From assembly GCA_020283715.1 (NCBI GenBank), contig JAIQCW010000021.1:1-45426 (forward strand): a DNA stretch of 45,426 nt, given 5' to 3'. The translations under genes and the position numbers were made by a program. This DNA comes from Cytauxzoon felis. Its lineage: Eukaryota; Apicomplexa; Aconoidasida; Piroplasmida; Theileriidae. This document shows positions 3,342 through 44,110 of the stretch, piece by piece (position 1 is the stretch's first letter; each line of letters opens with the position of its first letter). The notes beneath the pieces were generated by a model. The model was not told where the DNA came from, searched no databases, and worked only from the letters and a program-made list of their open reading frames with translations.

Positions 3342-6287
3342 ATGATATTTATTATATATTATATAATTTTTATTATAAATTTTAGGTCTAATTATATTTA
3401 TACAATTAAATGTGTAAATAATTATAGCTATTTAGGTACTCGTAATATATTTTTTAAATTAAATTATAATAAATTTACAAAATTATATAATATTAATGAA
3501 AATTCTATAAAATTTCATGAAATAGAAAAGAAATGGCAAGATTATTGGAGAGATTCTAATACATTTATAGCAAAAGATTATGATTTTATATATAATAATG
3601 AAAAATCTATAAGAAATGATAATATATCAGATGATTCTAATGATATAAATGTTATTTATATTAATAATAAATCACCAAAATATTATATTCTATCAATGAT
3701 ACCATATCCATCTGGTGATGGATTACATGTTGGACATTTACTTGGTTATACTATTACAGATGTAATATCTAGATATAAAAGAATGAATGGTTATAATGTA
3801 CTTAATCCTATAGGTTGGGATTCATTTGGATTACCATCAGAAAGATATGCTAATAAAGTTAAACGTAAAGTTGAAGATGTAACTATAGAAAATATAAATA
3901 ATTTTAAAAAACAATTAATATCTATGGGATATTCATATGATTGGAGTCGTGAAATTAATACTTGTAATATTAATTATTATAAATGGACACAATGGATATT
4001 CCAACAATTATATAAAAATAATCTAGCATATAGATCATTAGAACTTGTTAATTGGTGTCCAATGCTACAAACTGTATTAGCTAATGAAGAAGTTTCAAAT
4101 GGTAAATCTATACGTGGTAATTTTGATGTTTATAAAAAACCAATGAAACAATGGATGCTATCAATAAGAAAATATGCTAAAAGATTATCAGATGATCTTA
4201 ATAATCTTAATTGGCCAAAATCTATCAAATTAGCACAAAATAAATGGATTGGTATGGAAAATGGTTATAAAATAAAATTTAAAGTTAATCATTGCAATTT
4301 ATATCTTTATGCATTCATAAATAATCTTAATCTATTAAAATCTTGCTATAAAATCGAAATCTCCATCTATTTTAATGATATTTTACAATATTTATCCAAT
4401 AATATTAAAATTAAACTTTATAATATCATCAATAAAACAAATAAATTAACCAATCTACAATTATTCGATAAATCAAATCATGAATCCATAAATACCAATC
4501 TATACTGCATAAATCCACTCAATAATAATAAAATACCAATCTTTATCACAAACTCTTTCATCGATACCAATCGTGATATCAATGCACGTATAGTTACATC
4601 TATAGATCCACTCGACTCCACCGAGGTCCAATCCACCTCACCACCTGAGGTCCAATCCACCTCTATTCGTCTTGCAGACAGCTCTTCCAATTACATATCT
4701 CTAAAGAGTATAACCACTCCCGGAGATCGTGGCGATGATAGTGATGTAACCTCAAGTGGAGAACCCGTAGCTGATCTCAGGGAAGCGGAGGGGGAAGTAA
4801 ATAAAGGAAGCTGTCTGCAAGACGACCTCGGGTGGAAAGGCGAGTGGAATACCTCAGATGAAATAGTGAATGAATATGACATTGATTCATCATATTGTGA
4901 AAAATATACAAATTTCAAACTTCATGATTGGATATTTAGTCGTCAAAGATATTGGGGTGAACCCATACCCATTCTCACCAATGACAATAATCATAACAAT
5001 CCACTCGAGGTCAATCCTGCCGTCAGCTCTCCACCTGATGTCCAATCCACCTCTCCTTGTCTTGCAGACAGCTCTCCACCTGAGGTCCAATCCACCTCTC
5101 CTTGTCCTGCAGACAGCTCTTCCAATTACCTCCCCGTAAACGGTATAACCACTCCCGGAGATCGTGGCGATGATAGTGATGTAACCTCAAGTGGAGAACC
5201 CGTAGCTGATCTCAGGGAAGCGGAGGGGGAAGTAAATAGAAGAGCTGACGGCAGGACCTCAGGTGGAACGGCGAGTGGAAAAGAGAGTAGGACTGTAACC
5301 TCAGGTATAAAAGGTGTAGATGAATTTGAGTTAAGATCTGATGTAGGAACCAGTTCAAATTCAGATAATGATGATCATGTATATAAATTATTGGATATAC
5401 CGGTGAAAGTAGAATCGAATATAAGTAATGAGACAATGCCTCAATGGGCTGGTTCAAGTTGGCATTATTTGAGATTTACTGATCCTAATAATGATGAAGT
5501 GATATTTGATTATAAAAAAGCAAAATATTGGATGCCTGTAGATTTATATATAGGTGGTAATGAACATTCGATATCACATTTATTATATTCAAGATTTTGG
5601 AATAAGATATTATATGATTTGGGTATATCACCAGTATCAGAACCATTTAAAGAGATATTATTACATGGTATGATAAATAATGCAAAATATTATGATGATG
5701 ATGGTAATGAAATAAATGAAGATAAAATAATTAAATTTAAAGGTAAATATGTATTAAAAGATAATAAAAATAAAAATATAATAATGAAATCTATAAAAAT
5801 GAGTAAATCTAAAGGTAATATTATAAAACCAGATGATATTATAAATAAATTTAGTGCTGATACATTAAGATTACATTTATTATTCCTTAGCCCTATAGAA
5901 TTTGATAAATTATGGATATTTAATGGTATTTATGGTGTATATAAATTATTAATTAATATTTATAATATTTTTTATAATTTAAATTATAATAATAAATTAT
6001 TAGATAATAATAATAATGAAATTAATATTGAAATGAATAAATTTATTAATATTATTACAAATTATATAAAAAATTATAATTTTAATCTAATTATAGCTTA
6101 TTTTTTTAAATTTTTACCCACTCTACAAAAATGGAAATCTAATAATAAATTATCAATCACAATCGCAAATAAATTCTTAAAAATATTAAATCCATTCGCA
6201 CCACATCTAGCAGAAGAATTATATCATATTATTAATCCAAATATCAATCATAGCATCAATCATACAAAATGGCCCACCACCAACTAA
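3342..6287 (+). CDS. Leucyl-tRNA synthetase, bacterial/organellar type, with two repeat-derived insertions
   Basis: The single-exon gene encodes 981 aa; the ATG at 3342 is the first in frame. Residues 1-15 are hydrophobic, followed by a K/N-rich segment, as expected for an apicoplast (or mitochondrial) leader. Class I motifs are present: HVGH at 129-132 and KMSKS at 819-823. LeuRS-specific blocks include NPIGWDSFGLPSE, DWIFSRQRYWGEPIP and the DLYIGGNEHSISHLLYSRFW region. The CP1 editing region looks degenerate: no threonine-rich TTRPDT-like block or HD motif can be seen. Two family A copies are read through in frame, at about residues 423-505 (end of CP1) and 553-656 (just after EPIPIL). The catalytic core and anticodon-binding region look intact, so the enzyme is probably active in aminoacylation but not in proofreading. 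Confidence 0.9.
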   Translation: MIFIIYYIIFIINFRSNYIYTIKCVNNYSYLGTRNIFFKLNYNKFTKLYNINENSIKFHEIEKKWQDYWRDSNTFIAKDYDFIYNNEKSIRNDNISDDSNDINVIYINNKSPKYYILSMIPYPSGDGLHVGHLLGYTITDVISRYKRMNGYNVLNPIGWDSFGLPSERYANKVKRKVEDVTIENINNFKKQLISMGYSYDWSREINTCNINYYKWTQWIFQQLYKNNLAYRSLELVNWCPMLQTVLANEEVSNGKSIRGNFDVYKKPMKQWMLSIRKYAKRLSDDLNNLNWPKSIKLAQNKWIGMENGYKIKFKVNHCNLYLYAFINNLNLLKSCYKIEISIYFNDILQYLSNNIKIKLYNIINKTNKLTNLQLFDKSNHESINTNLYCINPLNNNKIPIFITNSFIDTNRDINARIVTSIDPLDSTEVQSTSPPEVQSTSIRLADSSSNYISLKSITTPGDRGDDSDVTSSGEPVADLREAEGEVNKGSCLQDDLGWKGEWNTSDEIVNEYDIDSSYCEKYTNFKLHDWIFSRQRYWGEPIPILTNDNNHNNPLEVNPAVSSPPDVQSTSPCLADSSPPEVQSTSPCPADSSSNYLPVNGITTPGDRGDDSDVTSSGEPVADLREAEGEVNRRADGRTSGGTASGKESRTVTSGIKGVDEFELRSDVGTSSNSDNDDHVYKLLDIPVKVESNISNETMPQWAGSSWHYLRFTDPNNDEVIFDYKKAKYWMPVDLYIGGNEHSISHLLYSRFWNKILYDLGISPVSEPFKEILLHGMINNAKYYDDDGNEINEDKIIKFKGKYVLKDNKNKNIIMKSIKMSKSKGNIIKPDDIINKFSADTLRLHLLFLSPIEFDKLWIFNGIYGVYKLLINIYNIFYNLNYNNKLLDNNNNEINIEMNKFINIITNYIKNYNFNLIIAYFFKFLPTLQKWKSNNKLSITIANKFLKILNPFAPHLAEELYHIINPNINHSINHTKWPTTN
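4609..4857 (+). repeat. Family A repeat inside the LeuRS exon (copy 1)
   Basis: This full A element is bounded by CCACTCG and CGAGTGGAA. Its left arm contains the GTCTTGCAGACAGC cassette, attac..tctctaaagag and CACTCCCGGAGATCGTGGC. Its right arm contains GTAGCTGATCTCAGGGAAGC, aagtaaata and GTCTGCAAGAC. It is translated in frame, including TTPGDRGDD and DLREAEGEVN. Confidence 0.9.
5000..5310 (+). repeat. Family A repeat inside the LeuRS exon (copy 2)
   Basis: This is a second full A element in the same gene, with tandem CCACCTGATGTCC/CCACCTGAGGTCC units at the left end. Its left arm is an alternative body (ctccccgtaaacgg) in place of ctctaaagag. The right arm carries CTGACGGCAG and GGCGAGTGG cassettes. 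It uses the same reading frame as copy 1. Confidence 0.9.
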
Positions 6288-6354
6288 TATTCAAAACTCT
6301 ACAATAAATTATATCCAATCCTACTCTTCTTGCCACACGATGTTACAACATTAC

Positions 6355-6860: not shown

Positions 6861-6933
6861 TAATATATTTTAATGAATGTATAAAATTTTATAGTATATT
6901 AGACCAGTGATTGCAATTATTGCAATTTATATA

Positions 6934-7944
6934 TTACAGTGTGATTCCATAAACCTGTTGTAGAGTGTATGCAACAGCAGCTTCATTATTAGATAAATTT
7001 ACAACATATTTAGCCTCTCTTTTAACATAATCATGCGCGTTATTCACAGCAAATGATAAATTTGATAATTTCATTGCTTCGACATCGTTGTAATTATCTC
7101 CGATATAGCCGCATGATGATTGATCTTCTCCCAAATGTTCCATTAATATCTTTAAACCTTCAGCTTTATTACCACCAGGTGGTGTGATATCAAAGGAGTC
7201 ACTTCCTGCCCTCATAGAAGTGAAATCTTTACCATTATCGAGTCCAGGAATTTCAATATTTGTTAAATCATCATTAGAATATATTTCTATAGTTATTATA
7301 GAATCACTTAATAAAATTTCTTCTGTAATCGAATCAATTGGTGGATACTTGTCACGTTCGCATACTTTTATAAATCCTTCAACTAATTCCACACATTTTA
7401 AAGCACGTGAATTTGAATAGAATATAGTTGATGATAATAGTCCCTTCTCCTTTACATAGTCATAGATTAATTTCAATGCCTCGGGACTAAATCCATTTGA
7501 TTTAACTACGATTCCATCTTTACCAAATATCGTGGAACCATCTGTATATATACCGGGATAAACATTGTAACCAGTTTCCTTCTCGAGATTATCAAATAAA
7601 TATAAAGCTGAATAAAATGTACGTCCTGAATGATGTCGTAGATTAATATCATCCTTCAACATACCAGTACAGAAGAATGGTGTATAACCAAGTTTAATTA
7701 CTTCTTTTAATGCCTTGAGATTTTTATTCATGGCTTCCTCATTATCTGTATAGAATGTACCATCTAGATCTAGTGCAAAGTATTTGGGAGGATTCTGTGG
7801 TTTAGTAAACTCACGGTGAGCTTTAGATTTTATAATTTGTACGACATCTGCTTCCACATCTTTACTATCATTTAAATCTGTACGCCCACATTCGATAGTA
7901 TAAAACAAATGCGATATAATAAAGTATACTATTAGCTTCATCAT
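6934..7944 (-). CDS. Secreted Cof-type HAD hydrolase (paralog 1)
   Basis: The single exon encodes 336 aa. Residues 1-18 form a signal peptide (KLIVYFIISHLFYTI). HAD motifs are complete: motif I DLDGT (nucleophile D59, acid/base D61), Lys260 in NKAEG as motif III, and motif IV GDNYND (D283, D287). The Cof/IIB layout, with a cap between motifs I and III and the phrase SCGYIGDNYNDVEAM near the end, suggests a phosphatase acting on sugar- or nucleotide-like phosphates. The substrate cannot be predicted. The secretory leader implies action outside the cytosol, possibly in the parasite vacuole space or host cell. The last 131 bp (6929-7059, including the stop) are identical to paralog 2, although the rest of the proteins differ widely. 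Confidence 0.85.
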   Translation of the reverse strand: MMKLIVYFIISHLFYTIECGRTDLNDSKDVEADVVQIIKSKAHREFTKPQNPPKYFALDLDGTFYTDNEEAMNKNLKALKEVIKLGYTPFFCTGMLKDDINLRHHSGRTFYSALYLFDNLEKETGYNVYPGIYTDGSTIFGKDGIVVKSNGFSPEALKLIYDYVKEKGLLSSTIFYSNSRALKCVELVEGFIKVCERDKYPPIDSITEEILLSDSIITIEIYSNDDLTNIEIPGLDNGKDFTSMRAGSDSFDITPPGGNKAEGLKILMEHLGEDQSSCGYIGDNYNDVEAMKLSNLSFAVNNAHDYVKREAKYVVNLSNNEAAVAYTLQQVYGITL

Positions 7945-8455: not shown

Positions 8456-8459
8456 ATCA

Positions 8460-9060: not shown

Positions 9061-9064
9061 ATAA

Positions 9065-9182: not shown

Positions 9183-9323
9183 TGGTCAAGTATAACATTA
9201 TTTAGGTACGTTTATGCATGTATATATAAACTTTAATATTATATTACAATCATTTGCAAGTTTTGCAAATTTCACTGAAGAAATTGGAATCATTAGGATG
9301 TTTGCAATTTTTAGCAACATATA

Positions 9324-10355: not shown

Positions 10356-10599
10356 CGCGATAAATATAATTAATGTACATAAAATTTTACAATATTTTAC
10401 AGAACATCATTATAGATAATGCATATGGAATCAATGATTGACAAAAACAAGTTACAATGGGGACATAAGACTAGTAAAATAATTAATCAATAATTTAATT
10501 GAAAATAACAATATAATAACAATTCATACATTAAACAATGATATATACTCCTTATATATCATTATTTTATTTTGAATGATACTTCCAGCCGATATTATC

Positions 10600-10935
10600 T
10601 CTTTTCGTCCTCAGACAAGCTCTTCACATGAGAACTATCTTTGTTTTCCACTCGCCTCCACCGAGGTCCAATCCTACTCTCTTCCTCTTGCAGAGAGCTC
10701 TCCACCTGAGGTTAGTCCTGCCGTCAGCTCTTCTATTTACTTCCCTCTAAAGAGTATAGCCACTCCCGGAGATCGTGGCGGAAGTATAGTCATAGGACCT
10801 CAAGTGGAGAACCCGTAGCTGATCTCAGGGAAGCGTAGGGATAACTAAATACAGAAGGCACCACGCCTAGTGGAATACAATGATTGGACCTCAAATGGAA
10901 AGGCCTCCACGGCTAGTGGAAAGAAAGGAACTCAG
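10600..10935 (+). repeat. Family A repeat, full element with extra right-hand cassettes
   Basis: The left end contains CCACTCGCCTCCACCGAGGTCC, the cctgccgtcagctc cassette, the tctaaagag arm and GATCGTGGCGG. The right arm (GTAGCTGATCTCAGGGAAGCG) is followed by CCACGCCTAGTGG and CCACGGCTAGTGG cassettes. It still contains an open frame (10576-10818) in the same phase as the exonic copies. Confidence 0.85.
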
Positions 10936-12847: not shown

Positions 12848-15016
12848 ATGTCGTCATCAGAAGTTGAATATATAGAGGTATGTTTCCGTATGGTGACGGA
12901 GAAAACATTTACAATGAAATTGGATCCATTATTAATGGTTAGTGATGTTAAGGCATTGATTGAGAGTGAATCTGACATATTACCTAGTAATCAGAGATTG
13001 ATATTTAAAGGTCAAGTATTGAAGGATGATTGTACATTATGTAGTTATAATGTAGAATCTGGTAGTACTATACATGTAGTTGGACGTGTTGTACAGGATC
13101 AAAATTCTGGTGAGACGAATACGAATACGAATACAAATACAAATACATGTCCACAATCACAATATACATATCCTAGAGCTGTTGCATCATCTATGGGTTT
13201 TTTTGTTAGTCCTATATTTACTGCTACAAATGTATCTACAACTGAGAATACTGAAGAAAATAGAGATGTTAATAATACAGAAACACAGACATCACAACAA
13301 CAAGAGGGTACAAATAGTTTTGGTTCATTTTTTCCTGGTACATCAATGCCATTTTTTACTGGTGGAAATAATTTATTTACAAATGATGGAAATAATTCAC
13401 AACAACAACAATCACAACAGCAACAGCCTGGACAAAGTGATAATAATTCCGGCTGGCAATGGTCTTATAATTTATCTTCACAACCAATGATGGTTGGACG
13501 TATGCAATTTACACATACTGTACCTGATGGTGAATCTAGTGTTAATCAAATGGCTTCTAATTTTATCAGTGGTATTGTTAATAATTTGATGTCTAGTAAC
13601 ACTATTTTTACTGGAACTAATACTACAAGTCAATCTACACAAAATCCAATTGTTGAGGAACCTGGTGATGATGGAAATCATCCAGATCGTCAGAATGACG
13701 ATAATACTACACATGAAACTAATGTAACATCAGATGAAGGCAATGCACAACCAAATTCATCCTCTATTCCACAAAGAAATGTAGGTGGAACCTATGGGAT
13801 GTCAGGAAATTTAGGATATCCAGTAGCAGCAGTAATTGGTACATTAGTAGCAGATGTAATTACAACAAGAGATGAAAGTGAATTGTTAAATATAAATTTA
13901 AAAGAGATTGTCAAAGATGCTAAAGAATCATTAGATAAAATTTATGAAACATTAGAATCTAGTGATGATAATAATAATGATAATACAAATGTAAATGCAG
14001 CTGATGATACAAGAGGTGGGAAAATATTATTAGTAGACCCCACAATCTTAGATACTAGATTACCGTGGAAAACTCTTAGAAATTTAGAAGAAATTTTAAT
14101 TTCAAGAGGATATTTACAACCATTCAATCCACTCGCTCCTGAAAATTTCAATAATTTTATTACAAGATATGAATATGTATCCAATATTGTCCTTAGATTA
14201 TTCCGATTAATTAATAGAAGAGAACGACTAAATCTACAATTCATTCATATCACTACATGCCTAGCATTACTTTCATCAATCAATACAGAATTAGCCAATC
14301 TATACCTATATATCAATAACAATACCAACATCGTCGTTAATGGTCATGCCAAAGATCAAGTCGAAGATACACCCTCATGCCCACATAATATCAATCATGA
14401 TAACACCGATGAAATCACAGATTTACCACCAAATGATGACGATGATGTTGTTGTAGTTTCAGAAACCAATACTGTTCCACTCCCCTCAAACGAGGTCCAA
14501 TCTAACTCTCTTCCACCTGAGGTTAGTCCTGCCGTCAGCTCTTCCAATTACCTATCTCTAAAGAGTATAGTCACTCCCGGGGATCGTGGTGAGGGTAGTG
14601 ATGGATCATCCATCATGGGAATGATGGAAGATGGTGCTAAGGTTGTGTTGGATGTAACCTCAAGTGGAGAACCCGTAGCTGATCTCAGGGAAGCGGAGGG
14701 GGAAGTAAATAGAGAAGCTCCATGCAATGCGAAAGATGGAAGGACCTCAAGTGGAGACGGCAGGATGACCTCAGGTGGAAGCTATCTGCAGGACAATGAA
14801 AGGACTTCAAGTGTAGTTAACCATCTCAGTCATGATGTTCCTTCGGACGGTGATGTAATAGAATCTATAGATGAAGTGATGGATATGGACAGCAATACAC
14901 CGACATTATCAAATGCACGCGATTTACTAAATGCCTATAAATCAAGTGGCTCATTTAAGGAACGTATGTGTGAGGTATCTAATACACAATTGAGTGACGC
15001 TTACTTGGGATCATAA
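12848..15016 (+). CDS. Ubiquitin-like domain protein, BAG6/Scythe-like
   Basis: The single exon encodes 722 aa. Residues about 8-78 form a ubiquitin-like fold (FTMKLDPLLMVSDVKALIES, QRLIFKGQVLKDDCTL, GSTIHVVGR), as at the N-terminus of BAG6 or ubiquilins. A long low-complexity middle (TNTNTNT, poly-Q, S/N-rich) follows, then a helical, hydrophobic segment near residues 330-500. The C-terminal LSDAYLGS recalls the LSDAYLSG-type end of BAG6. BAG6 is a chaperone-like factor for tail-anchored and defective proteins; that role is inferred here. A family A element is translated in frame at about residues 544-657, including a SSIMGMMEDGAK segment shared with other genes. The gene lies head-to-tail with the methyltransferase, 22 bp apart. 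Ubiquilin-type identity is the alternative. Confidence 0.7.
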   Translation: MSSSEVEYIEVCFRMVTEKTFTMKLDPLLMVSDVKALIESESDILPSNQRLIFKGQVLKDDCTLCSYNVESGSTIHVVGRVVQDQNSGETNTNTNTNTNTCPQSQYTYPRAVASSMGFFVSPIFTATNVSTTENTEENRDVNNTETQTSQQQEGTNSFGSFFPGTSMPFFTGGNNLFTNDGNNSQQQQSQQQQPGQSDNNSGWQWSYNLSSQPMMVGRMQFTHTVPDGESSVNQMASNFISGIVNNLMSSNTIFTGTNTTSQSTQNPIVEEPGDDGNHPDRQNDDNTTHETNVTSDEGNAQPNSSSIPQRNVGGTYGMSGNLGYPVAAVIGTLVADVITTRDESELLNINLKEIVKDAKESLDKIYETLESSDDNNNDNTNVNAADDTRGGKILLVDPTILDTRLPWKTLRNLEEILISRGYLQPFNPLAPENFNNFITRYEYVSNIVLRLFRLINRRERLNLQFIHITTCLALLSSINTELANLYLYINNNTNIVVNGHAKDQVEDTPSCPHNINHDNTDEITDLPPNDDDDVVVVSETNTVPLPSNEVQSNSLPPEVSPAVSSSNYLSLKSIVTPGDRGEGSDGSSIMGMMEDGAKVVLDVTSSGEPVADLREAEGEVNREAPCNAKDGRTSSGDGRMTSGGSYLQDNERTSSVVNHLSHDVPSDGDVIESIDEVMDMDSNTPTLSNARDLLNAYKSSGSFKERMCEVSNTQLSDAYLGS
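14478..14818 (+). repeat. Family A repeat inside the BAG6-like exon
   Basis: This full element has an extra inner block (ggatcatccatcatgggaat and following) between its arms. It carries cctgccgtcagctc, a tctaaagag arm, GTAGCTGATCTCAGGG, and then CCATGCAATG, GACGGCAGG and CTGCAGGAC cassettes in series. It is translated in the standard frame. Confidence 0.9.
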
Positions 15017-15038: not shown

Positions 15039-16974
15039 ATGAAAGTTTTAACCTTGAAAAATGTAAAATTATAATATCCTTTTAAGTATACATGTATATT
15101 ATAGGCAAGTATCATATTATTAACGGCCAATGGCTTGGCATTTTATGGTACATACAGACGTTTTAAAAGTAATAGACCACCCTATGAAGATATAGCACCT
15201 CCATTAGGTATAAGAGTTATTTATAATACTTTAATTCATTATCCAATTCAGAAAGTCATCGCATACAAATTTATGATTCTTTGGCCAATGTATACGACTC
15301 CACGTACGGTCCACTTTTGAAGGTAAATTAAAATTTAACATTAAAATCCATATTATTAGCATATCGGTGTTGCAAAAGCTAAAAGTGTATTATTGAAACA
15401 TGCCAAAGGTCATGTACTCGACATAGCAGCTGGTACATTGGATAACCTCCAATACTATGATAATGTCGAAAGCCTAACCGCTATAGACAAGAGCATTAAC
15501 ATGTGCATTAACATGAAGAACAAAATAGGTACGTTTAATTCCACAATTTCCATTCTCACCCATATGATCTCGTTTTTCATTCCTCTACCTGAGGCCCATC
15601 CTTGTCTTGCAGACGGCCTCCTTTATTTACTTCCCCCTCCAGCTCCCGTAGATCACTTTCGGGTATTCCACTTGAGGTCCAATCACTAACATCGCCACGA
15701 TCTCTGGGAGTGGCTATACTCTTTAGAGATAGGTAATTAGAAGAGCTCTCTGCAAGAGAAGGAGAGGTGGATTGGACCTCAGGTGGAGAGCTGACGGCAG
15801 GATGAAGAGAGGATGGATTGGACATCAGGCGAAAAATTAAGGATTTTTTTGTACTTTTGATTCTTGGAATGTTTATAAATGATGATATAGAGAGGGATAA
15901 GCCTTCATTTCCTGTTACGGTTATATGTGATGATGTATCGAACATACCATTTGAGGATTCATGTTTTAACACTGTTGTAAGTACTCACGCATTATGTTCA
16001 ATCGAGAATCCATCATTATGTATAAATGAAATCGCAAGAGTTTTGAAACCAAGTGGACGATATTTAGCACTTGAACGTGGAGCTATTTATTATAAACCAC
16101 TTCGTAATTTAATGTTAGTTTCATATACCTCATCATTACTTATCTTAATTACAGGTCAAAATTGAAATTATATCCAAATCCAGTAATACCATGGAAATAC
16201 GGATACTTCGAAGATCGTGACCCACTGTATGTTTACATTGGATGCCCTTTCCTCCTCTTGAGGTCCATCCAACTCTGTTCCACTTGCCTTGGAGGCTTCT
16301 TCTATTTAGTTTCCCCTTCGCTTCCCTGAGATCAGCTACGGGTTCCACTTGAGGTCAATTATTACTAATTACACTAACTTCATTTTCACCTCCAAAATTT
16401 GAAGGAAATCCTCAATTTCTGTGGAAACTACTGAAGATAACTCAATGAATAATGGTTGTATTTCTGATGACAATACTTCATTGAAGAGGAATTTGATGAT
16501 TCTATTGAATTATATCATCCTCACTTCAATCCAATTCATATTCATTGAGTTATCTCCACAAACATAAATACCATCACTTTATCCTTATCTCGACGAGATT
16601 ATAAATTAACCTCAAGTGGAACCTGGAAGCGATCTATGGGAGCTGGAAGGGGAACTAAATAGAGAGGCTCCATGCAATGGGAAATATGGACATAGACTAG
16701 AGAATCCGATGAATATCTAAGATGATGTATGATTGAATAGTTGATATTGATTATTTGGATAATAATAATATTATATAGTGCACTAATACGTGGAAGTGGT
16801 ATGGATATATCGGATTATGGTGTATTTGGTTATGGTTTACATTATTCGATAATATCACGTCGTGTTTGTAAAATAGATGAGAATGAGATTAAATTACACC
16901 AAGATCCACAATTTAATCGTAAAGTGAATGTATTTTATCGTTATGTACCAAAAGATCAGGATTTACTTCTTTGA
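15039..16974 (+). CDS. SAM-dependent methyltransferase (METTL7/OMS1-like), seven exons
   Basis: Exons 15039-15062, 15105-15207, 15252-15322, 15360-15528, 15891-16113, 16155-16226 and 16779-16974 join to 285 aa with all phases consistent. An N-terminal hydrophobic stretch (ASIILLTANGLAFYG) suggests a membrane or mitochondrial anchor. It is followed by YDSLANVYDS, typical of this family. The SAM-binding motif I is VLDIAAGT. ICDDVSNIPFED and a motif around EIARVLKPSGR follow, then a C-terminal GYFEDRDP block. These features fit type 11 methyltransferases of the OMS1/METTL7 group; the substrate (lipid, quinone or other) is unknown. Intron 4 (362 nt) contains an antisense A element and intron 6 (552 nt) an A-B-A composite; the other four introns are 37-44 nt. 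The 3' end overlaps TIM22 by 19 bp, convergently. Confidence 0.8.
15590..15832 (-). repeat. Family A repeat in methyltransferase intron 4
   Basis: Full element in antisense orientation to the host gene. It reads tcttgcagacggcc, tttacttccccc, agatcac, then CACGATCTCTGGGAGTGGC, ctctttagagata, cctcaggtgg and gctgacggcagg. Its own frame (minus strand, 15577-15972) is open although it lies in an intron. Confidence 0.85.
16240..16695. repeat. A-B-A composite in methyltransferase intron 6
   Basis: A minus-oriented arm (16250-16355) ends CCACTTGAGGTC. The B core (about 16356-16612) is in reverse orientation, with aaatttgaaggaa, tcctcacttcaatccaattc and tctcgacgagatt. A plus-oriented arm (16610-16690) ends in CTCCATGCAATGGG. 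Confidence 0.85.
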
Positions 16975-18155: not shown

Positions 18156-20701
18156 ATGTATATTAAGAGTTTTTACATGTTGAATTATCGCAAATTAAGT
18201 ATTCTTTTGATAGTACAGTTATTATTTAACTGTAATTCTATTCAGTGCTCAAATGATAATAATAAATCAAATGCAATTAATATTTCTGTAAATGAATATG
18301 TAAATCATGAAGATATTGAAAGGACACATCAAATATATTCAAAATCTAAACCATTATCATTAACAGATACTAAAAATCATAGTACATCATTACAACAACT
18401 CATTGATGATGCTGAATTATTAAATAAAAAATTAAAGAAGTTATTATCAATTTTATATTTTAGAGTTTTTAGAGTCAATCTTGATTCTAAATGTAAAACT
18501 AAAGGAAAAAATGGATTATGTGCATCTATTAATCATAAAGATATTTCAGCTTATATACTTTCTTCATATTCTGCTAATAATGATGGTATTAATCTCTCAA
18601 AATGCCAAGTTGATAAATGTAATCTTAGTGAAGTACCACATGATCTACAAACCTCAAAAATGGAACATTTTGTACTCAGATACCCAGCAAATATCAAAAA
18701 TTCTAATTGGGATCCAATAGAATTATACGGTAAAGATCTATTATACAATGATATCCTCGGAAATTACCCAGGAACATCCATCGAACCATCGGTCTTTGTC
18801 GACCTCTCCAGAAATCCACCCTCGTATACCGGATATCAAGGACATAATGACTGGTTTGTTTATACATTATACAAGGAATAACGATCACTATACTCGAGGT
18901 ACAATACCACCTTCTTTTCCACTCGCCTCCACTCGAGGTCGTCCTGCCGTCAGCTTCTCTATTTACTTCCCCCTCCGCTTCCCTGAGATCAGCTACGGGT
19001 TCCACACTTGAGGTCAATTATTACTAATTACACTAACTCCATTTTTACCTCTGAAATTTGAAGGAAATTCTCAATTTCTGTGGAAACTACTGAAGATAAC
19101 TCAATGAATATTGAATGAATTATAAATCTCAATACTTCATTGAATAGGTTTTTGATGATTGTATTGAATTATATCATCCTCACTTCAATCCAATTCATAT
19201 TCATTGAGTTATATCCACAAACATAAATACCATCACTTTATCTTTATCTCGACGAGATTATAAATTAACCTCAAGTGGAACCTGGAAGCGATCTATGGGA
19301 GCTGGAAGGGGAACTAAATAGAGAGGCTCCACGCCTAGTGGAAGGAGAGTTGGAATGTATAGTAGAGGATTGAACATCGAGTGGATGTATATCTTCTTTA
19401 AATGTGAATAAATAAAATATTTTAGGAAAATGATATATGATGATAGTATAAATGGTACGATAGAGGTTCCATGTGATCAGAATGGTCATTTATATAAGTT
19501 GATATCGGGTATGCAATCATGTATATCTGCTACATCATCATGGAATTATGAATGTATAAATCCATTAGAGGCATATCAATTACAGACAGAGTTACCTCGT
19601 TATCGTTCTAATGTAGATTTTTTTAATAATAAATTAGGTAATCATTCAGATCGTTTAGAGAATTTATATTATACATTTCAAACATTATTAAAAGCTACAT
19701 GTAAATTAACACCAGTATTAGTTACATTTGCTCGTAAATTAAAAAATGAGGATAATACATTACAATCAACATTATTAGATTTATTAGATACACAATTTAC
19801 TACATGTCAAAATTTAAATATAGCAGATCAAAATAATACACATGAACATGGTCTTGCTAATTGTTGTTTATGTAATAATGATATACATTATCTCAAGTAT
19901 GTTTTAAATTTATCATTAGTGTCTCATATATCTTTTAGCCACCCATTACTACTCGAAAAATTCCAAAATATCACCAAAATTATCGAATGTATCAACTGCG
20001 AAAAATGCCGATTACACGCCAAAATCAAACTATCCGCATTACAAATCGCCATACGGGTACGCCTTTATACAATTTATAATTAATCATCACACTCCACTCG
20101 AGGTCCAATCACTACCTTCCTTCGTCTTGCAGACAGCTTCTTCTAATTACCTATCTCTAAAGAGTATAGCCACTCCCAGAGATCGTGGCGGAAGTGAAGG
20201 TGTAGAGGATGTAACCTCAAGTGGAATACCCGTAGCTGATCTAAGGGAAGCGGAGGGGGAAGTAAATAGAAGAGCTGACGGCAGGAATGTAACCTCAAGT
20301 GGAACGGCGAGTGGAAGACCTCAGGTGGAGAGCCGTCTGCAAGACGAAGGAAAGGTGGGAGTGGAATGAGGTCTATGTAGTGATTGGACTTCATGTAAAG
20401 TTCTTATTGTATTCGTTTTTATATCATTTATAATAATTAAATATAGGCATTTGCAAGTGAGGATTCATTACAAGTATTAGAAAGGAATGAGATTGTGGCA
20501 TTTTTGCATGGTCTGTATTATTTTTCAGAGTCTGTATTGATAGTGCGTCGTTTTAATGAGCGTCATCGTCGTCAGATTATGTTATATCCAATAAGGATTA
20601 TGTTGGCAGCATTATTATTTTTAATTGTTGTATATCGTAGAGAATTGTTTTATGCAATGTTTTATTGTACACTGGTAGATTATAGTAATTACAATTTATA
20701 A
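18156..20701 (+). CDS. ERO1: ER oxidoreductin (Ero1)
   Basis: Exons 18156-18853, 19426-20056 and 20447-20701 join to 527 aa. A signal peptide (about residues 9-31) is followed by an SILYFRVFRVNL block, and by KCKTKGKNGLC and CQVDKC cysteine clusters corresponding to the shuttle region. NPPSYTGYQGHNDW is the family's flavin-domain signature, with YKLISGMQSCISA later. The active-site motif is ECINCEKCRLHAK (CxxCxxC). The end has a NEIVAFLHGLYYFSES block and, unusually, a hydrophobic segment (IMLAALLFLIVVY) that may anchor it. Ero1 uses O2 and FAD to reoxidise PDI in the ER lumen. The first donor is GTTTGT, chosen because phase and alignment demand it. Both introns (572 and 390 nt) are filled by A-B-A and A repeats. 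Confidence 0.9.
18893..19388. repeat. A-B-A composite in ERO1 intron 1
   Basis: A minus-oriented arm (about 18905-19012, with gtcctgccgtcagct and ctgagatcagctacggg) is followed by a reversed B core (19013-19268). A plus arm (19265-19385) with a CCACGCCTAGTGG cassette completes it. The B core is very close to the copy at 16356-16612. Confidence 0.85.
20090..20395 (+). repeat. Family A repeat in ERO1 intron 2
   Basis: Full element in sense orientation. It keeps the open frame SSNYLSLKSIATPRDRGG..DLREAEGEVNRRADGR even though the flanking splice sites remove it. The right side has GACGGCAGG, GGCGAGTGG and GTCTGCAAGAC cassettes in series. Confidence 0.85.
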
Positions 20702-21974: not shown

Positions 21975-22205
21975 TTCCACCTGGGGTCCAATCCAACTCT
22001 CTTAGTCCTACCGTCAGCTCTTCCAATTACCTATCTCTAAAGAGTATAGCCACTCCCGGAGATCGTGGCGATTATAATATGGACCTCAGGTGGAGACCTC
22101 AAGTGGAACCCGTAGCTGATCTCAGGGAAGCGAAGGGGGAACTAAATAGAAGAGGCCACCACGGCGAGTGGAAAGACCTCAAGTGGAACGCCGAGTGGAA
22201 GATAA
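21975..22205 (+). repeat. Family A repeat downstream of the FAINT-like gene
   Basis: Full element from CCACCTGGGGTCCAATCC through ctaccgtcagctc, the tctaaagag arm and the right arm to CCACGGCGAGTGG and GCCGAGTGG. An intact frame runs through it. Confidence 0.85.
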
Positions 22206-34368: not shown

Positions 34369-35991
34369 TTATTTATTGTAATTATCTTCTATATTATCAT
34401 AAATGTTTAATAATTGATAAAATACATCGGCATTCATTTCTATCCATTCGGATTGATTAATTAATTGAAAGAATTTATAATTATGATGATGTTGATTTAT
34501 TATAAATAATTGACATAGAATATTATCATGAAGATGATTAGAATAAATGGTAACATCAATACAATATTCATTAATATCATTAGATTCCCAAATGAATAAA
34601 TTATTATCTATAACTCTGAATATAAAAAAATTATATTTGAGAGTAAATATAATACAATTTAGACCATATGGATGATATTTATATAATTTTATATTATTAT
34701 TTAAATTTATAGATGATATATCTAATTCAAATTCATTTTCTAATATATTTTTATTATTTTTATATATATTTTCATTAATTTCTATACAATTATTATAATT
34801 ATTTAAATAATAATATCTTTCAAATATTATTTTATTATTTGTTATTATAATTTGTATTAATTTTACATTATTTTTTCTATAATTTATTAATAATTTTATA
34901 CATTTTTCATTAATATTATCTGATTTCCATATTATATTATTATTTAATTTAATACATGTTATTATATATTCTTCTTTTATATCCATTTTTATTGAATTAT
35001 TACCATAATCTCCCCAAAATATTATAGTATTACATAAATTATTACAATCATTTATATCCAATTCATATTCATTACATAATTTACAATACATTACTACATA
35101 TTCTTCATTATTTATAATATTCCAATTACCTGTCAATTTATCTCTAAAATAATATAACTTATAATTTCCCACATAGTCATTAATCAAAGATGATCTTCTT
35201 ACATTATCTATTATATTAGAATCTCTATTTAGTTGTAACTCCACCTTCCTGAGATCACTCTCGGGTAGTCCACTTGAAGTCCTGCCGTCAGCTTTTCCAC
35301 TTGAGGTCGTCCCACTAGGCGTGGTGCCTCTTCTATTTACCTCCCCCTCCGCTTCCCTGAGATCAGCTGCGGGATCCACTTGAGGTCCAGTACTAACATC
35401 CTTAGCACCATCTTCCATCATTCCCATGATGGATGATCCATCACTACCCTTCTCACCGCCACGATCTCTGGGAGTGGCTCCATCGGTTACATTAAAGTAA
35501 TTAGATGAAGCATCCATAGCAACAGGAATATATGCTGTATGGGGAATATGGTAAGATTTTCCAATATAAAACATGCCATTTTCTGATGATTCATCTATTC
35601 GATTTAAAGTGGTAGCTTCACTTTTTACATGTCTATGAAACTCTAGTGAATCGTTTCTGGACTCTGCGTTATCAACATCATTATAAGATTTAACATTAGA
35701 TTTAATTTCTATTGTTAATACAGATGTACCAATTTTATTAGTATGCATTATTGCACTTGTACAAACATCGCCATTTTTACTAGACCAAATTAAATTATCA
35801 TAACATTGTATCAATTCAATAAAATTATTATACTTTGGTGTATAAATACTCATACTTACTCCATTTACTTCATTCGTCACTACATTTATATCATCACTTG
35901 GATTTAAAATATTTAAAGCTAATAACATACCATGACAGACATAATATAATTTTACAATGTAAAAAATTATTAATAATATACAAACTTTCAT
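34369..35991 (-). CDS. Secreted FAINT/DUF529-like protein with a family A insertion inside a domain
   Basis: The single exon encodes 540 aa with a signal peptide (residues 1-20). The first FAINT-like unit runs NILNPSDD..DNLIWSS..VLTIEIKSN (to residue 99), then resumes at KLYYFRDKLTGNWNIINNEEY (278-298). Roughly 180 residues have been inserted in the middle of the unit, of which residues about 161-257 are the family A translation (TPRDRGG, SSIMGMMEDGAK, DLREAEGEVNR). Two further units follow, starting at about YELDINDCN (309) and FELDISSIN (about 417). The second and third units are rich in Asn/Ile and very AT-biased. No membrane anchor is visible. Secretion to the host cell is inferred from the family; function is unknown. 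Confidence 0.72.
   Translation of the reverse strand: MKVCILLIIFYIVKLYYVCHGMLLALNILNPSDDINVVTNEVNGVSMSIYTPKYNNFIELIQCYDNLIWSSKNGDVCTSAIMHTNKIGTSVLTIEIKSNVKSYNDVDNAESRNDSLEFHRHVKSEATTLNRIDESSENGMFYIGKSYHIPHTAYIPVAMDASSNYFNVTDGATPRDRGGEKGSDGSSIMGMMEDGAKDVSTGPQVDPAADLREAEGEVNRRGTTPSGTTSSGKADGRTSSGLPESDLRKVELQLNRDSNIIDNVRRSSLINDYVGNYKLYYFRDKLTGNWNIINNEEYVVMYCKLCNEYELDINDCNNLCNTIIFWGDYGNNSIKMDIKEEYIITCIKLNNNIIWKSDNINEKCIKLLINYRKNNVKLIQIIITNNKIIFERYYYLNNYNNCIEINENIYKNNKNILENEFELDISSINLNNNIKLYKYHPYGLNCIIFTLKYNFFIFRVIDNNLFIWESNDINEYCIDVTIYSNHLHDNILCQLFIINQHHHNYKFFQLINQSEWIEMNADVFYQLLNIYDNIEDNYNK
35220..35490 (-). repeat. Family A repeat inside the FAINT-like exon
   Basis: Full element in sense with the host. 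It has two right-arm bodies in series (ctatttagttgtaact and ctatttacctcccc types), the inner ccatcatggatgatcc-type block and a left arm cut short after CACGATCTCTGGGAGTGGC, where tctaaagag is replaced by ggttacattaaag. Confidence 0.88.
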
Positions 35992-36274
35992 ATATATACA
36001 ATTGTAATTAATTAATATCTACATCATATACTATCATATTATGGATAAATGCAACATGTGATCAATCCTAATATATAATCATCAACAGTGGGGAATAATA
36101 AACATATACTATTTCTAATAAACAAACACAATAAATAATCAAATATTTATCAACCTTAATAATTATTATAAACTAACCGAAATAAATATTATTAGTAGAC
36201 AAATTATATAATAAAATAAACTTAACTTTATATAAAATATCATGATTTAGAATCGACAATTATTAATATCCATT
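35992..36274. other. AT-rich intergenic DNA upstream of a FAINT-like gene
   Basis: No gene or repeat is visible. It is the probable promoter of the 34369-35991 gene. Confidence 0.35.
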
Positions 36275-37427: not shown

Positions 37428-37482
37428 ATAAAATTAAAAGAAATTAAATTAAATCCCATAATATAGAATCCCACGATAAACA

Positions 37483-40400
37483 CTATTCATTTCCGATAAA
37501 CAATCCATCATCATTCTCATCCTCTATATAAATATTATTAATATTAGTATAAATTTTCCACACGAAAAGATGGTAAAAACCGAAGGTCTATTACTTCTGT
37601 TCCACCCGAGGTCCAATCCATACCTTCACCACTTCCAACTCTCTTCGTCCTGCCGTCAGCTCTCCACCTGAGGTCGTCTTGCAGACAGCTCTTCTAATTA
37701 CCTCCCCCTCCGCTTCCCTGAGATCAGCTCGGGTTCCACTCGAGGTCCAATCCATACCTTCTCATCGCCACGATCTCCGGGAGTGGCTCTACTCTTTAGA
37801 GATAGATAATTGGAGGAGGCTCCACGCCGAGTGGAATAGAGTTTGAACCTTCTTAGAGTGACTAGTATGAAATGGAGAACATACCTGATAGACAAGGTTT
37901 GATTTCATGATCGATTGTTTGTTCTGGTACTTGTGTTGGTAGTATACTAACGAAAGCAATAGGTATTAAATGTGCAGTACTACAAATAAAAATGAGTGGT
38001 ACTAAACCATTGAAATGATTTGAATCAATACCAAATAAGAATGTTAATATAGCTGATACATATGTTGATGTATCCATACCAAGGAATTGTATAGTCCATA
38101 AGAATGAATACATTGATGATTCAATACCTTGTGGACATAATCTTGTTGCCATTACAAAAATTGGTAATGAATTAATTTCACCAACAAATTGTAGTAATGA
38201 TGAATCAGTAATAACAAAAGCTGTATCTGGTATACCAATTTCTAAATTCCATCTTTTAACAAGTATTATACTCGATAATGAAAATATAGATACAAATATT
38301 GTTGTCCATATAAATAATACACGTAAATTTATATGACGAAATAATTTCGAATAACAATAAATACCAATCAAACTTGCTACAGCCTGTACCGCACTAAAAC
38401 GACCAAATAATTCCGGCTCAAAACCCAACCTGTCCGTCATAAAATAAAACATTGCTGTACCCGCAGATGGAACAATCTATACATTTATTATTTACACATT
38501 AAATCATATACTAATCTCTCCACTTGAGGTCCAATCACTGTCTTCTACTGTTCCACTCGGCGTTCCACCTCTCTTGGTCCTGCCGTCAGCTCTTCTAATT
38601 TGTTATCTCTAAAGAGTAGAGCCACTCCCGGAGATCGTGGCGGAAGTAGAGGTAAATGATTGGACCTCAAGTGGATTACCCGCAGCTGATCTCAGGGAAG
38701 CGGAGGGGGAAGTAAATGGAAGAGCTGTCTGCAAGACGACCTCAGGTGGAGCGGCGAGTGGAATGGAGGTAGATTCGACTTCGGGTGGAGATGGAAGGCA
38801 AGTATGGATATAGTGTTGATAAACATACCATGCTAATGAATAAAAATAGAGCTGGTTTTTTGATTTCGGGTCTGGATGCAAATGTGTATAATCTTGACCA
38901 TTGATCTTTGATGTTGAGATATTTATTATTATTTCTCTCTTGTATAAATGGTGCAGTGAATAATACAATAAGAGGCATAACAGATGACATTAAAAAAATT
39001 TGCTAAAGATATCAGAGTGAATAATAAAAAAAAACATACTTTTTTAGGTATATACATTATAAGTACAGATGATAAATATGACATTGCCGCAAATGTTAAT
39101 TTCCTAAATGCACAAAATGTCGATATTGAACGCGTAACCTCATCATTATTCTGATGTCTACCAAACTCTATCACTAATGCCTCACCAATTACACTGCATA
39201 ACTAAATAAAATAATGATAATTCATGGAAGATAATAGACATTCACTGTGTATTGCTGACAGCTCTCCACTTGAGGTCCAGCTTTTCCATTGCATGGAGCT
39301 CCTCTAATTACCTATCTCTAAAGAGTAGAGCCACTCCCGGAGATCGTGGCGGTGAGAAGGTCATTTGATGAATGTAAAGGGTGAAGGTAGTACTGGACCT
39401 CAAGTGGATTACCCGAAGCTGATCTCAGGGAAGCGGAGGGGGAAGTAAATAAAGGAAGCTGTCTGCATGACGACCTCGGGTGGAACGGCGAGTGGAAAGA
39501 CATCAAGTGGATAGCTGACGGCAGGACGAAGAGATGTGGATTATAGCCTCAATAGCAGTGGGAATATATGTTGAATAACCTTCGACTCATATTGATATTA
39601 AATATAAAACTTACGGCCATTCCTAGTGAACAACATGCTAATAGCGTAGTTGTGAGTATGATTGATTGATTATCTAAAAATCCTAATGTAATAGTAGATG
39701 CCAGACATATAATTGAACCAATAGCTAAATAACTCTTCCTTCTACATCCAATTAAAGGTACAGCGTCACTTAAAAATGCAAATAATAACTTTATATTCAT
39801 TGGTAATCTAATCAAACCCAATACAAAAATCAACCATGCTGTAAATAAATTTAAATTACATGTCATAATCCAGGAGAAAATCATAACAAGACATCTTATA
39901 CTCGACGTCCCACTTGAGGTCCATCTTTTCCACTCGCCGTTCCACATGTGGTCGTCCTGCCGTCAGCTCTTCCATTTACTTCCCCGTAAACGGTAATGCC
40001 ACTCCCAGAGATCGTGGCGGATGTAGAGGTAAATGATTGGACCTCAGGTGGAAGTAGAACCTGGAAGCGATCTATGGGAGCTGGAAGGGGAAGTAATTAG
40101 AAGAGGCGCCACGCCGAGTGGAAGGAAAGTTGCATTGGACCTCGGGTGTAACTGCGAGTGGAAGACAAGGTTATATATAATAAGATCGCTTGGTGGACAA
40201 CATTTTACTCCACTATAGATTGCATCGGACGGCAAATGTATATGGTATTTTGGTGTATATATTAAGATACAACATACCTGGTGAGAGTTTGAAATCGTCT
40301 TTATAAATGTAAAGTATGGGTAGATAGCATAGTATTTCTACGCCATGTAGCATGGCTGTATGACTATATTAGAAATGTGTTGATGAACATACCGATAATA

Positions 40401-40561: not shown

Positions 40562-40806
40562 TTTAATATATATTAAATACAAGAGTATATACGATTAAAT
40601 CTACATTATATGATAAGATAGTTATTTAGAATAATTCATATATTTTATTTTCTTGAAGTAAATATATGATTATTCTAAAAGTGTTAAATTTGAAACATTT
40701 GATGTTAATTTTTGTGCATACAATTGCAACCTTCCAAATGTACCATAGTGAATCGTTAATATTAAATAATAAAAATATTAATGTGTAAAATAATAGTGAT
40801 ATTAAA

Positions 40807-43800
40807 TTATAGTGTGGATAGTATCAACACCAGCATCGTTAAAAATAATTTATTAACCTAAGGAAAAAATATATTATTTTATCATTTATTATATTAGACA
40901 TTAATAATTATATAAACTTACATTCATATTAAAACCATTAATGTGTAATAAATCTTCACCTGTAATTTTCAAACTTGTCAACTCTATATACTCATCATTG
41001 TCTATCTTTGGACCATCATCACTTGATATCAAATTAAATCTTAATGATAATGACTTATTATTATGTAAACCATTAACTAATGACTTCATTATTCCAATAT
41101 TCTCTTCACCATTTCTCTGATGATCAACTAATTTGCCATTTGGAACATGAGGATTCACATGACCAGCCAAATTATCCCTTACATTTAAATCATTTGATTG
41201 TATACCTATCACCCTTTCATCTGTATTAGGATTATCACCTAATGCATTCATTAGATGAGAATTTAATACACTATTGCTACCTGAAGTATTGCCGTTCTCT
41301 CTTACATTTGCCGTTCCACCTGAGGTTACATTCCTACTATCCTTTCCACCTGAGGTCATTCCACTCGCCGTGGTGGCTTCTCTATTTACTTCCCCCTTCG
41401 CTTCCCGTAGATCAGCTGCGGGTTCCACCTGAGGTCCAGTACTACTCTTAATTCCACTCGTAGTTCCACCTTCCTCACTGCCACGATCTCTGGGAGTGGC
41501 TTTACTCTTTAGAGATAACAAATTAGAAGAGCTGACGGCAGGACCAAGAGAGGTGGATTGGACCTCAGGTGGAGAAGCTTCTACGGCATTGGGATGAGAG
41601 ACTATATGATTTTTAATTGAGTCATTTTTAGATGGAGGGATATTTGAATTGGTATTAATGAAGCTTGTATTGAATATTTTACTAAATATTTTCTTTGGTA
41701 ATGTTAGGATTCCATCATTGACTGTTGTATTTTTATTCTCATCTGTAATTTCTTCAAGTGTATTTGGATTAACTCCTACAATATTAGCCAATTGGTTTGG
41801 ATTATTCAATGCATCTTTAATATCTTCATATAATTTTTCAAATGGTAATGATAATTTTGATAAATTCGATTTAAATTGTTTAGATGACATCTTATTTAAC
41901 AAATCATCAACATCACCAGATATTAAAAGATTATCAATTATGGAATATATTATCCTTAATGAAGTTTGTGGACCTAAGATTAACTTTTCCAATACATTCT
42001 CATCACTAATAAAAAGAAAATTAATTTCTAATAATAAATTTCAAACTAACTTTAAATCTAATAAAATAGAACGAATTAAATTACTAATCAATGATTCATT
42101 TAATTTAGGTTCCAAATGATTACCTTTAATAGTAAATATACCCAATGGTAATAATGATCTTCTTATACCCATTAAAGGTGTTATCATATCAACCCTTTCC
42201 AATTCATTACCATCATTTAAAGAATTAACACCATATGTTATATCGTCAGCCACACCACTTGAGGTTACATTCCTGCTCTTCATTCCACTAGGCGTGGTGC
42301 CTTCTCTATTTAGTTGTCCCTCCGCTTCCCTGAGATCAGCTGCGGGTTTCACTTGAGGTCCAGTACTACTCTTCATTCCACTCGCCGTGGAGGCTCTTCT
42401 AATTACCTCACCTCGACTCCCATTGATCGTCTCGGATTCTTCGCCACGATCTCTGGGAGTGGCATTACCGTTTACGGGGAGTGAATTGGAAGAGCTGACG
42501 GCAGGACTAACCTCAGGTGGAGACATGTCTGTATGATTAGCCCCGTCATTATTTCCATTAGTTGTGGCAGTATTTTTATTTATTTCTCCTTCCAGTTTCA
42601 CTTGATTGCCTGTTGGAGGTATACTTGTATCAGGTTCATTTCTGGAGAATAATGTCATTTCTAATAATTTAGGTACGGATTCTATAAGACTTATTGTATC
42701 AGGCACAGAATCTGTAACTGATTTTATAACCTCTAAATCAACACCAGCTCTAGCTATATTCTCTAATGGTTTTAATGATTCACTACTAATCTTTGGCATG
42801 TAATTATCACTCATGGCTGATACTATCCTCTCGATTTTATGCTTATGACCCAAATTAGATATACGGGTTAAATCATTCAATAATGATGTTTCTAACTCTT
42901 CAACCAACTTACTAAATGGCTCATATGCATCCATAAATACACTTGCCTGTAAATATAGAATAATACCATTAATTATGGGGTAAAACACCACAATTGTAAT
43001 AGACCCTATAAATCCCCACATGATGTTACAACCACTGTTGGTCTTGCAGACAGCTCCTCCACCCGAGGTTACATTCCTGCCGTCAGCTTCTCTATTTACT
43101 TCCCCCTACGCTTCCCTGAGATCAGCTGTGGGTAGTCCACCTGAGGTTACATCCATTACAACTTCAGCACTATCTTCCATCATTCCTATGATGGATGATC
43201 CATCACTACCTTCACCACGATCTCCGGGAGTGGCTTTACTCTATAGAGATGAATAATTGGAAGAGCTGTCTGCAAGACCAACGGTAGAGTCGTGTGGAAC
43301 ACTGGTTGTAACCTCAGGTGGAGGTAGTAGAGAGCTATGGTACAAATTTCGTTGGGAAAATATGACTTTGACATTCCTTGTGTATAAACATACTGATTTT
43401 TTGAGATAGTCTTCAATATTGACTTTGATATTGTACACGTCATTGACGAGTGTGATATTTTTGACAATATCATTTTTATTACCACTGGCGATGGCGCACA
43501 TGATGTTTGCTATTATGTTCCATCTTTTGAATAGTATATCTTGTACATTTTTTGATATTAAGGATAATTCTGCGTTACGGAATAGTGGAAGGAATTTTTC
43601 TAGCAATGATTTGACATCGTTATATAACAATTTAACTTCGGGTATTTTTACATTATTTAAATCATTGATACGTTTTTCTAATAATTTATATATGAATTGT
43701 CCATTATTATTTGGTAGGAATGATTGATTGATGATGGCTTCTGTTATACATATAATTACTTTAAAATATTTATTAATTAAACCTTCTAATTCATTACCAT

Positions 43801-44110
43801 TACAATTATTATTATTTATTTTACATATTGATATACTTTTATCATTAATTATATGACATTCTGATAACAATTTATTATTAATTACATCATCACTATATAA
43901 TTTATTATTATTTATAGATTCTTTTAAAACATTTAATAATACATTTTGTATCTTACATGTCTCTTCATTATTAATCATATCTTCTAGATTTACTGCATTA
44001 TTTGGTGTTAAGATATTATTTATATTATCTGCATTCTTATCAAATTTAATCGATGATATATTATCTATTAATATTAAATATATAAATAATATTAATCTTA
44101 ATATATTCAT
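40807..44110 (-). CDS. Predicted secreted GPI-anchored protein with two in-frame family A insertions
   Basis: Exons 44110-43394, 42946-42051, 42005-40922 and 40857-40807 join to 915 aa with matching phases. Residues 1-20 form a signal peptide (MNILRLILFIYLILID). The last exon supplies a short hydrophobic tail (LFLTMLVLILSTL) directly at the C-terminus, after polar sequence, as in GPI-attachment signals. Between them lie mostly helical, Asn/Ile/Leu-rich segments with few cysteines (CKIQ, CHII, CKINNNNC, MCAIAS). No known domain is recognised. Family A copies are translated at about residues 379-474 and 680-773, separating three native blocks; a third A copy fills intron 1 (447 nt). The other introns are 45 and 64 nt. 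A surface location is inferred; function is unknown. Confidence 0.65.
41300..41582 (-). repeat. Family A repeat inside exon 3 of the GPI-anchored gene
   Basis: Full element in sense, with tandem CCACCTGAGGT units, CCACTCGCCGTGGTGGC, cgtagatcagctgcggg, CACGATCTCTGGGAGTGGC, ctctttagagata and gctgacggcagg. It is read in the same frame as all other exonic copies. Confidence 0.9.
42245..42530 (-). repeat. Family A repeat inside exon 2 of the GPI-anchored gene
   Basis: Full element in sense. It contains CCACTAGGCGTGGTGCC and CCACTCGCCGTGGAGGC cassettes, the rare cgactcccattgatcgtctcgg arm shared only with 24350-24400, and the gtttacgggga left arm. Confidence 0.9.
43030..43325 (-). repeat. Family A repeat in intron 1 of the GPI-anchored gene
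   Basis: Full element in sense. It contains the inner ccatcattcctatgatgg-type block found also in the BAG6-like and FAINT-like exonic copies, a ctctatagagatg arm and a GTCTGCAAGACC cassette. Confidence 0.88.

Follow-up and report, generated by a model that had tools for sequence, protein, structure and literature searches.

Family A is a dispersed palindromic DNA repeat that is read in frame within unrelated protein genes of Cytauxzoon felis, a piroplasmid (apicomplexan) parasite of cats. It was recognized in one whole contig of 45,426 nucleotides (JAIQCW010000021.1 of assembly GCA_020283715.1, hereafter the window). The pattern is real and strongly non-random. Family A is very probably a selfish, non-autonomous coding palindrome that has spread in the C. 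felis nuclear genome and acts like the Rickettsia palindromic elements. A preliminary description of the window, made from the letters alone, had proposed such Rickettsia-like in-frame peptides in a eukaryote. This proposal is supported by the apicomplexan host, the hairpin, the single open exonic frame and the retention of the elements in cDNA of the surface antigen gene cf76.

In-frame copies in the window

The preliminary description named six A copies in four genes. All six are present, in sense orientation and open in the same frame. Its leucyl-tRNA synthetase (LeuRS) carries Pfam LeuRS domains, and its FAINT-like protein of 541 aa matches PF04385. The protein called BAG6-like has a Pfam ubiquitin domain, and the name itself is a label; the open reading frames (ORFs) of the gene called glycosylphosphatidylinositol (GPI)-anchored have no Pfam match, and this name is also a label. 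The two in-frame copies of the GPI-type gene stand, and a third copy with two stops, predicted to be intronic, is added to them. The genes and elements are:

3342..6284, + strand: LeuRS ORF with two A elements (Pfam PF00133, PF09334, PF13603, PF08264; PDB LeuRS matches to E 3e-120)
4670..4822, + strand: A core (P-linker-Q) in frame in LeuRS, arms ~4615-4855 by eye (profile hits, frame test)
5105..5256, + strand: A core in frame in LeuRS, left-arm array from ~4995 and right arm to ~5280 by eye (profile hits, frame test, homologue segment lengths)
12848..15013, + strand: ubiquitin-domain (BAG6-like) ORF with one A element (PF00240, 3.3e-18)
14527..14726, + strand: A core in frame in the ubiquitin-domain ORF (profile hits, frame test)
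34372..35994, - strand: FAINT (DUF529) 541-aa protein ORF with one full A element (PF04385, 7.2e-14)
35223-35266, - strand: weaker second Q half in the FAINT ORF (profile hits)
35327..35514, - strand: A core in frame in the FAINT ORF (profile hits, frame test)
40904..42040, - strand: GPI-type surface protein gene, last-part ORF with one A element (ORF list; no Pfam match)
41375..41543, - strand: A core in frame in the last part of the GPI-type gene (profile hits, frame test)
42044..43105, - strand: GPI-type gene, middle-part ORF with one A element (ORF list; no Pfam match)
42300..42506, - strand: A core in frame in the middle part of the GPI-type gene (profile hits, frame test)
43075..43277, - strand: third A element of the GPI-type gene, with two in-frame stops, in predicted intron 42947-43393 (frame test, splice motifs)

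The predicted intron around the third element is 447 nt long, with donor GTATGTTTA at 43393 and acceptor TTTACAG ending at 42947. An in-frame TGA at 42041-42043 splits the two element-bearing ORFs of this gene; a short intron starting GTTAGTTTG is possible there.

Anatomy and abundance of the elements

Two modules make up family A: P (64 bp) always comes first and Q (59 bp) second. The core is ~100-260 bp and carries variable arms. The P consensus encodes the peptide PADSSSNYLSLKSKATPGDRG in the only open frame of six, and the Q consensus encodes PVADLREAEGEVNR in its only open sense frame. The linker between P and Q spans 10 to 146 bp. Smaller modules flank the core on both sides in variable number and, by eye, mirror each other. 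The elements are short, high in copy number and provided with inverted terminal arms; the arms extend by a variable number of modules, and their ends cannot be fixed by eye for a target-site duplication check. A elements fold as an imperfect hairpin. The mean minimum free energy (MFE) z score, from 20 shuffles per copy, is -2.9 for 17 copies with open flanks (range -6.1 to -0.2) and -3.8 for 17 of the 58 other A copies (range -13.0 to -0.2). Matching between the arms of one copy is weak in non-exonic copies (p 0.007) and absent in flanked copies (p 0.41). The exonic A peptide is rich in Ser, Gly, Glu and Asp, and 18% of its residues are hydrophobic (931 residues, 16 copies).

The census sample comprises 214,334 bases, namely the window and loci L011-L030 (168,908 bases; positions 10,001-20,000 of contigs 1-21 except 14). 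The loci were picked by contig number and not by repeat content, and the sample is not a random draw. Exons and introns in it are predicted, not annotated. It contains 240 modules, which form 75 A elements, 24 class B elements and 42 unpaired modules; modules and their spans cover 10.8% of the sample. The density of A is 350 per Mb, and plain extrapolation to the 8.62-Mb assembly gives ~3,000 A elements. The 16 exonic copies in 214 kb extrapolate to ~640 genome-wide, which would mean several hundred proteins with the repeat peptide. Class B consists of a reversed Q, a spacer and Q, the spacer being 252-292 bp in 18/24. None of the 24 B elements has an open frame, and none lies inside an ORF of at least 120 codons. 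B elements have Q ends in common with A but enclose a spacer.

Rfam gives no match in the window at the gathering threshold. A transposase search with PF13843 only finds no match in C. felis, and none in 14 control genomes either. A reverse transcriptase search (PF00078) finds one ORF, in two stretches, which we take to be perhaps telomerase.

Frame and strand of A copies

The flank test is blind to the interior of the element and requires that each side have an open run of 180 nt or longer, the two on a common strand. Same-strand open flanks are found in 22 of the 75 A elements, 18 in sense and 4 in antisense only. In 17 of the 18 sense copies both flanks are open in the element's own frame, and the element itself is open in 16 of these 17. 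Copies without open flanks are open in only 20 of 53 cases (Fisher p 4.3e-5). With the flank limit set at 150, 240 or 300 nt, 16/17, 15/16 and 12/13 copies respectively are open (p 3e-5, 1e-4 and 1.4e-3). The sole exception among the 17 is the intronic copy 43075-43277. It was set aside after its stops had been seen, and with it moved to the others the counts become 16/16 against 21/59 open (p 1.5e-6), beside the values including it given above. Donor and acceptor motifs, identified by eye, likewise bracket the eighteenth sense copy (L028:854-1015) and one antisense copy (L027:2167-2309). None of the four antisense flanked copies is open in any antisense frame. The rule for calling a copy exonic demands flanks open in the frame of the element, which builds sense and frame into the rule; the unbiased counts are 22, 18, 17 and 4. 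One open A copy, L030 9781-9895, is counted with the others by this rule; its 959-codon ORF is truncated at the end of the locus. The earlier statement that several intronic copies keep the same frame open also holds, for 21/58 non-exonic copies by the strict rule, plus the copy at 20125-20286 save for a one-base shift.

The 16 read-through copies have 11 different linker lengths and therefore do not descend from one inherited insertion. P and Q are in phase in 15 of the 17 flanked copies, and the other two, with a shortened Q, still read open. Orientation between ORFs is scorable in 24 of the 58 non-exonic copies: 9 are sense, 10 antisense and 5 mixed. Because the linkers differ in phase, no frame stays open in a mixed consensus of 46 cores; two of its antisense frames have a single stop each, in P. 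A donor-like motif lies within 300 nt upstream of 1/17 flanked copies, the intronic one, against 24/58 of the others (either strand). The motif was derived by eye, without cDNA calibration, from three introns that contain elements. Introns seem to begin with GTAYGTTTA, and GTAYGTTT, which occurs 48 times in the 214 kb on both strands, is possibly useful for gene models. Of ~150 genome-wide matches listed for the element peptide, ~54 fall within frames of at least 300 codons, and none of these has a stop (counted by eye); the search is biased to intact peptides and lists part of the candidates.

Two simpler accounts of the uniform frame were set aside. Chance open frames are ruled out by the interior-blind test. 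Frame-targeted insertion is unneeded: five of the six frames of the P consensus contain stops, so the uniformity is explained without targeting.

Retention in cf76 mRNA and allele diversity

With the element region of LeuRS as query, two clusters of the C. felis surface antigen cf76 rank above LeuRS homologues. The window's own assembly encodes cf76 with 100% identity over all 723 residues (C114:6540-8708). Its genomic ORF is 2172 nt long and contains two A cores, at L003 2130-2273 and 3249-3421. The cf76 gene is a single exon, and a 2172-bp ORF was amplified from cDNA; the RNA was DNase-treated and negative in an 18S control PCR (PMC3748084). Published data thus already give direct evidence of A elements in a mature mRNA, that of cf76. 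Primers R1 (2198-2223) and F2 (2185-2209) even lie inside the first A element, spanning L003 2185-2223. The dispersed repeat is not remarked on by the authors in the accessible parts of that report.

Two cf76 alleles of 723 and 706 aa differ in 59 columns, all in residues 119-298 of 723. Of these differences 41 are in the first element array, 13 upstream and 5 downstream of it, and the rest of the protein, including the second element, is identical. The C-terminal region has a 30-bp repeat that is tandem in 10/11 isolates and single in one (PMC3748084). The sole candidate for it is the EADGRNVTSGG unit of the element, 33 bp in this genome. The match is inexact, and the two are likely the same. 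These findings suggest that in-frame change may be concentrated in exonic elements. The C-terminal fragment of cf76 is strongly reactive with survivor sera (PMC3748084). This fragment (L003 2995-3669) contains the second A core, 173/675 nt, so the reactivity may not be cf76-specific.

Host proteins

Neither LeuRS copy falls in a stretch that can be aligned to solved LeuRS structures. Segment 546-696 of the protein has 151 aa, compared with a median of 58 in 38 homologues, and the second copy adds ~93 residues. The first copy sits where the end of the editing domain is expected, and the usual GTG...AHDERD stretch is not recognisable there (4500-4920). C. felis LeuRS may have lost editing. Elsewhere in the sample, exonic copies are found in ORFs with zf-CW, TFIIS_M, Brix and AP2 domains, and the truncated ORF of L030 has a NIF phosphatase domain. 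The scan of these ORFs, 10 in all, also gave a DEAD-helicase match below the cut-off and a weak HBM match, and no match for 3/10.

Proposed mechanism and alternatives

As a selfish coding palindrome, family A would insert with indifference to frame and strand, and selection would purge the copies that truncate proteins. Exons would then keep only sense copies whose linker lets P and Q be read in one frame. Blind insertion together with selection against truncated proteins would thus produce the uniform frame and orientation seen in exons. Exonic copies would be transcribed, kept in the mRNA and translated. The added peptide would form Ser/Gly/Glu/Asp-rich loops that are tolerated between domains and, judged by composition only, are probably disordered.

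Several observations count against this mechanism. The element peptide has never been seen by mass spectrometry, and selection on it is not clearly visible in codon-position divergence. The cDNA evidence found is for cf76 only, an intronless gene, and so depends on the DNase treatment and the negative 18S PCR. Neither a target-site duplication nor a transposase is established (ends read by eye, PF13843 only), so copy number is the single line of evidence for mobility. The hairpin energy is weak in some A copies, with z up to -0.2, and in two exonic copies (linker 10) Q is read in a shortened form. Linker phase in non-exonic copies is not fully random: Q is in phase with P in 27/58 and out of phase in 31/58, above one in three (p 0.04). 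This excess may come from short exons or shared descent.

The preliminary description itself had raised the alternative that the repeats are removed as unrecognised introns. Exonic copies would then be introner-like, spliced out, and no peptide would be made. Without the element, LeuRS segment 546-696 would regain a normal length (151 aa against a median of 58), and some other A copies, including 43075-43277, do sit in predicted introns. However, an intron can do without an open frame and without an in-frame length, whereas 16/17 flanked copies have both; a donor-like motif is close to just 1/17, the intronic one, and the cf76 cDNA retains both its A copies. With the frame test, the few donors and this cDNA against it, we regard splicing of the exonic copies as very unlikely. 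Ribosomes could instead skip the hairpin. The RNA hairpin is strong on average (mean z -2.9, 17 flanked copies), and such translational bypassing has a precedent in palindromic elements of Magnusiomyces mitochondria (cited in PMC6649704). A bypassed stretch has no need of an open frame, yet 16/17 are open, and the linker lengths of A copies vary. Bypassing therefore appears exceedingly improbable.

The peptide could also be an ordinary domain spread by gene duplication or domain shuffling, with the non-coding copies as its decayed remains. The reading frame is indeed conserved, and the FAINT host has another family member in the window. However, 58/75 copies are non-exonic by the flank rule and lie in both orientations, the identified hosts have no common domain, and the element is palindromic; we give this origin little credence. 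A better case can be made that exonic copies were co-opted and that the peptide persists because of its use to the parasite, perhaps as an immunodominant decoy or as a place where antigens diversify. All 59 allele differences of cf76 fall in residues 119-298, 41 of them in the first element array; the 30-bp C-terminal repeat varies among 11 isolates, and the element-holding fragment reacts strongly with survivor sera (PMC3748084). Housekeeping proteins, however, also carry the A element, the serology cannot tell element from flank, 18/59 variable columns are outside the element, and the second element is identical in both alleles compared. Co-option is unlikely on this balance, though it deserves more weight than a domain origin.

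Implications

Most of the in-frame coding palindromes described so far come, to our knowledge, from Rickettsia and a few other prokaryotes. In C. felis there would be thousands of copies (extrapolated) in a eukaryotic nuclear genome, where introns beside exons provide an internal control. The idea that selfish DNA builds protein becomes directly testable through these copies. Vaccine work on C. felis is affected as well, since the antigen cf76 carries two A copies. The C-terminal seroreactive fragment and the C-terminal in situ probe of cf76 cover one A copy, so that cf76 serology and hybridisation may also report other genes. A wider and more tentative possibility, on which we remain doubtful, is that the C. 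felis proteome is pervaded by a mobile coding palindrome and that the arrays in surface antigens are hot spots where modules are gained, lost and exchanged between copies in frame, through which one shared, shifting peptide is shown to the cat on many proteins.

Other features of the window

The remaining A and B elements of the window are:

10716..10858, + strand: non-exonic A element, frame closed (profile hits, frame test)
15605..15757, - strand: non-exonic A element, frame open (frame test)
18942..19329, no strand assigned: B element (Q reversed, spacer, Q) between two ERO1 exons (Pfam for ERO1, profile hits)
20125..20286, + strand: A element downstream of an ERO1 exon; frame shifted by one base close to where P starts and open from there on, ORF 19920-20366 (frame test)
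22006..22157, + strand: non-exonic A element with open frame; the adjacent ORF 22322-22867 is on the other strand (frame test)
25019..25183, + strand: non-exonic A element, frame open (frame test)
39955..40110, + strand: A element with none of its six frames open, antisense to a minus-strand ORF at whose edge it lies (frame test)

The adjacent ORFs 6937-7944 and 9327-10406 are similar in sequence and HAD-hydrolase-like by eye. A Cys-rich ORF of 913 codons at 29340-32078 has no Pfam match; we presume that it resembles a variant surface (VESA-like) protein.

Comparison with known systems

No description of family A was found in the open-licence literature searched. In a word- and length-limited search of 5.77 billion proteins, with 261 candidates scored, nothing but the two cf76 clusters matches the cf76 element peptide at E up to 10. 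Family A resembles miniature inverted-repeat transposable elements (MITEs) in being short, apparently non-autonomous, high in copy number and bounded by inverted arms; it differs in that no target-site duplication or parent transposon is established (ends by eye; PF13843 only). No class II transposons were reported from 64 surveyed apicomplexan genomes, nor any transposable elements from C. felis, and that survey removed MITE candidates as likely false positives (PMC9141347). From introners, family A differs in that its read-through copies are not spliced, by the evidence of 16/17 open frames, a donor near 1/17 and the cf76 cDNA. Translational bypass elements are transcribed and untranslated, and the conserved open frame of A would argue against this class. 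PARCELs are protein-coding DNA with dyad symmetry, as A is, and occur in some eukaryotic microbes in membrane-targeted proteins, varying between related pathogens (PMC2996958). However, a PARCEL is made of tandem 25-residue amphipathic repeats in ORFs, whereas A is dispersed, encodes 18% hydrophobic residues, sits in unrelated ORFs and lies mostly outside exons. The coding palindromes of Nematomorpha mitochondria are also inverted repeats in translated genes, but these are organellar, and their arms code for conserved residues belonging to the protein itself (PMC6649704); A is a nuclear repeat that adds residues.

The Rickettsia palindromic elements are the closest parallel in behaviour, likened by description; the protein search, with no direct comparison to their sequences, found no sequence relative. 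They are dispersed palindromic repeats of ~150 bp, some of them in frame in unrelated housekeeping genes, and each encodes a conserved peptide, typically in non-structured segments (PMC10969869, PMC2996958). Like them, family A is palindromic and hairpin-forming (z scores; mirrored flanks by eye), is found both in unrelated protein genes and outside genes (16 read-through copies and 59 others), and has its coding copies all in the same orientation and frame. Its density of 350 copies per Mb in the sample compares with 44 integrations of Rickettsia palindromic elements in R. conorii (PMC10969869). Unlike them, family A lives in a eukaryote with introns and has a bipartite P-linker-Q build with extendable arms.

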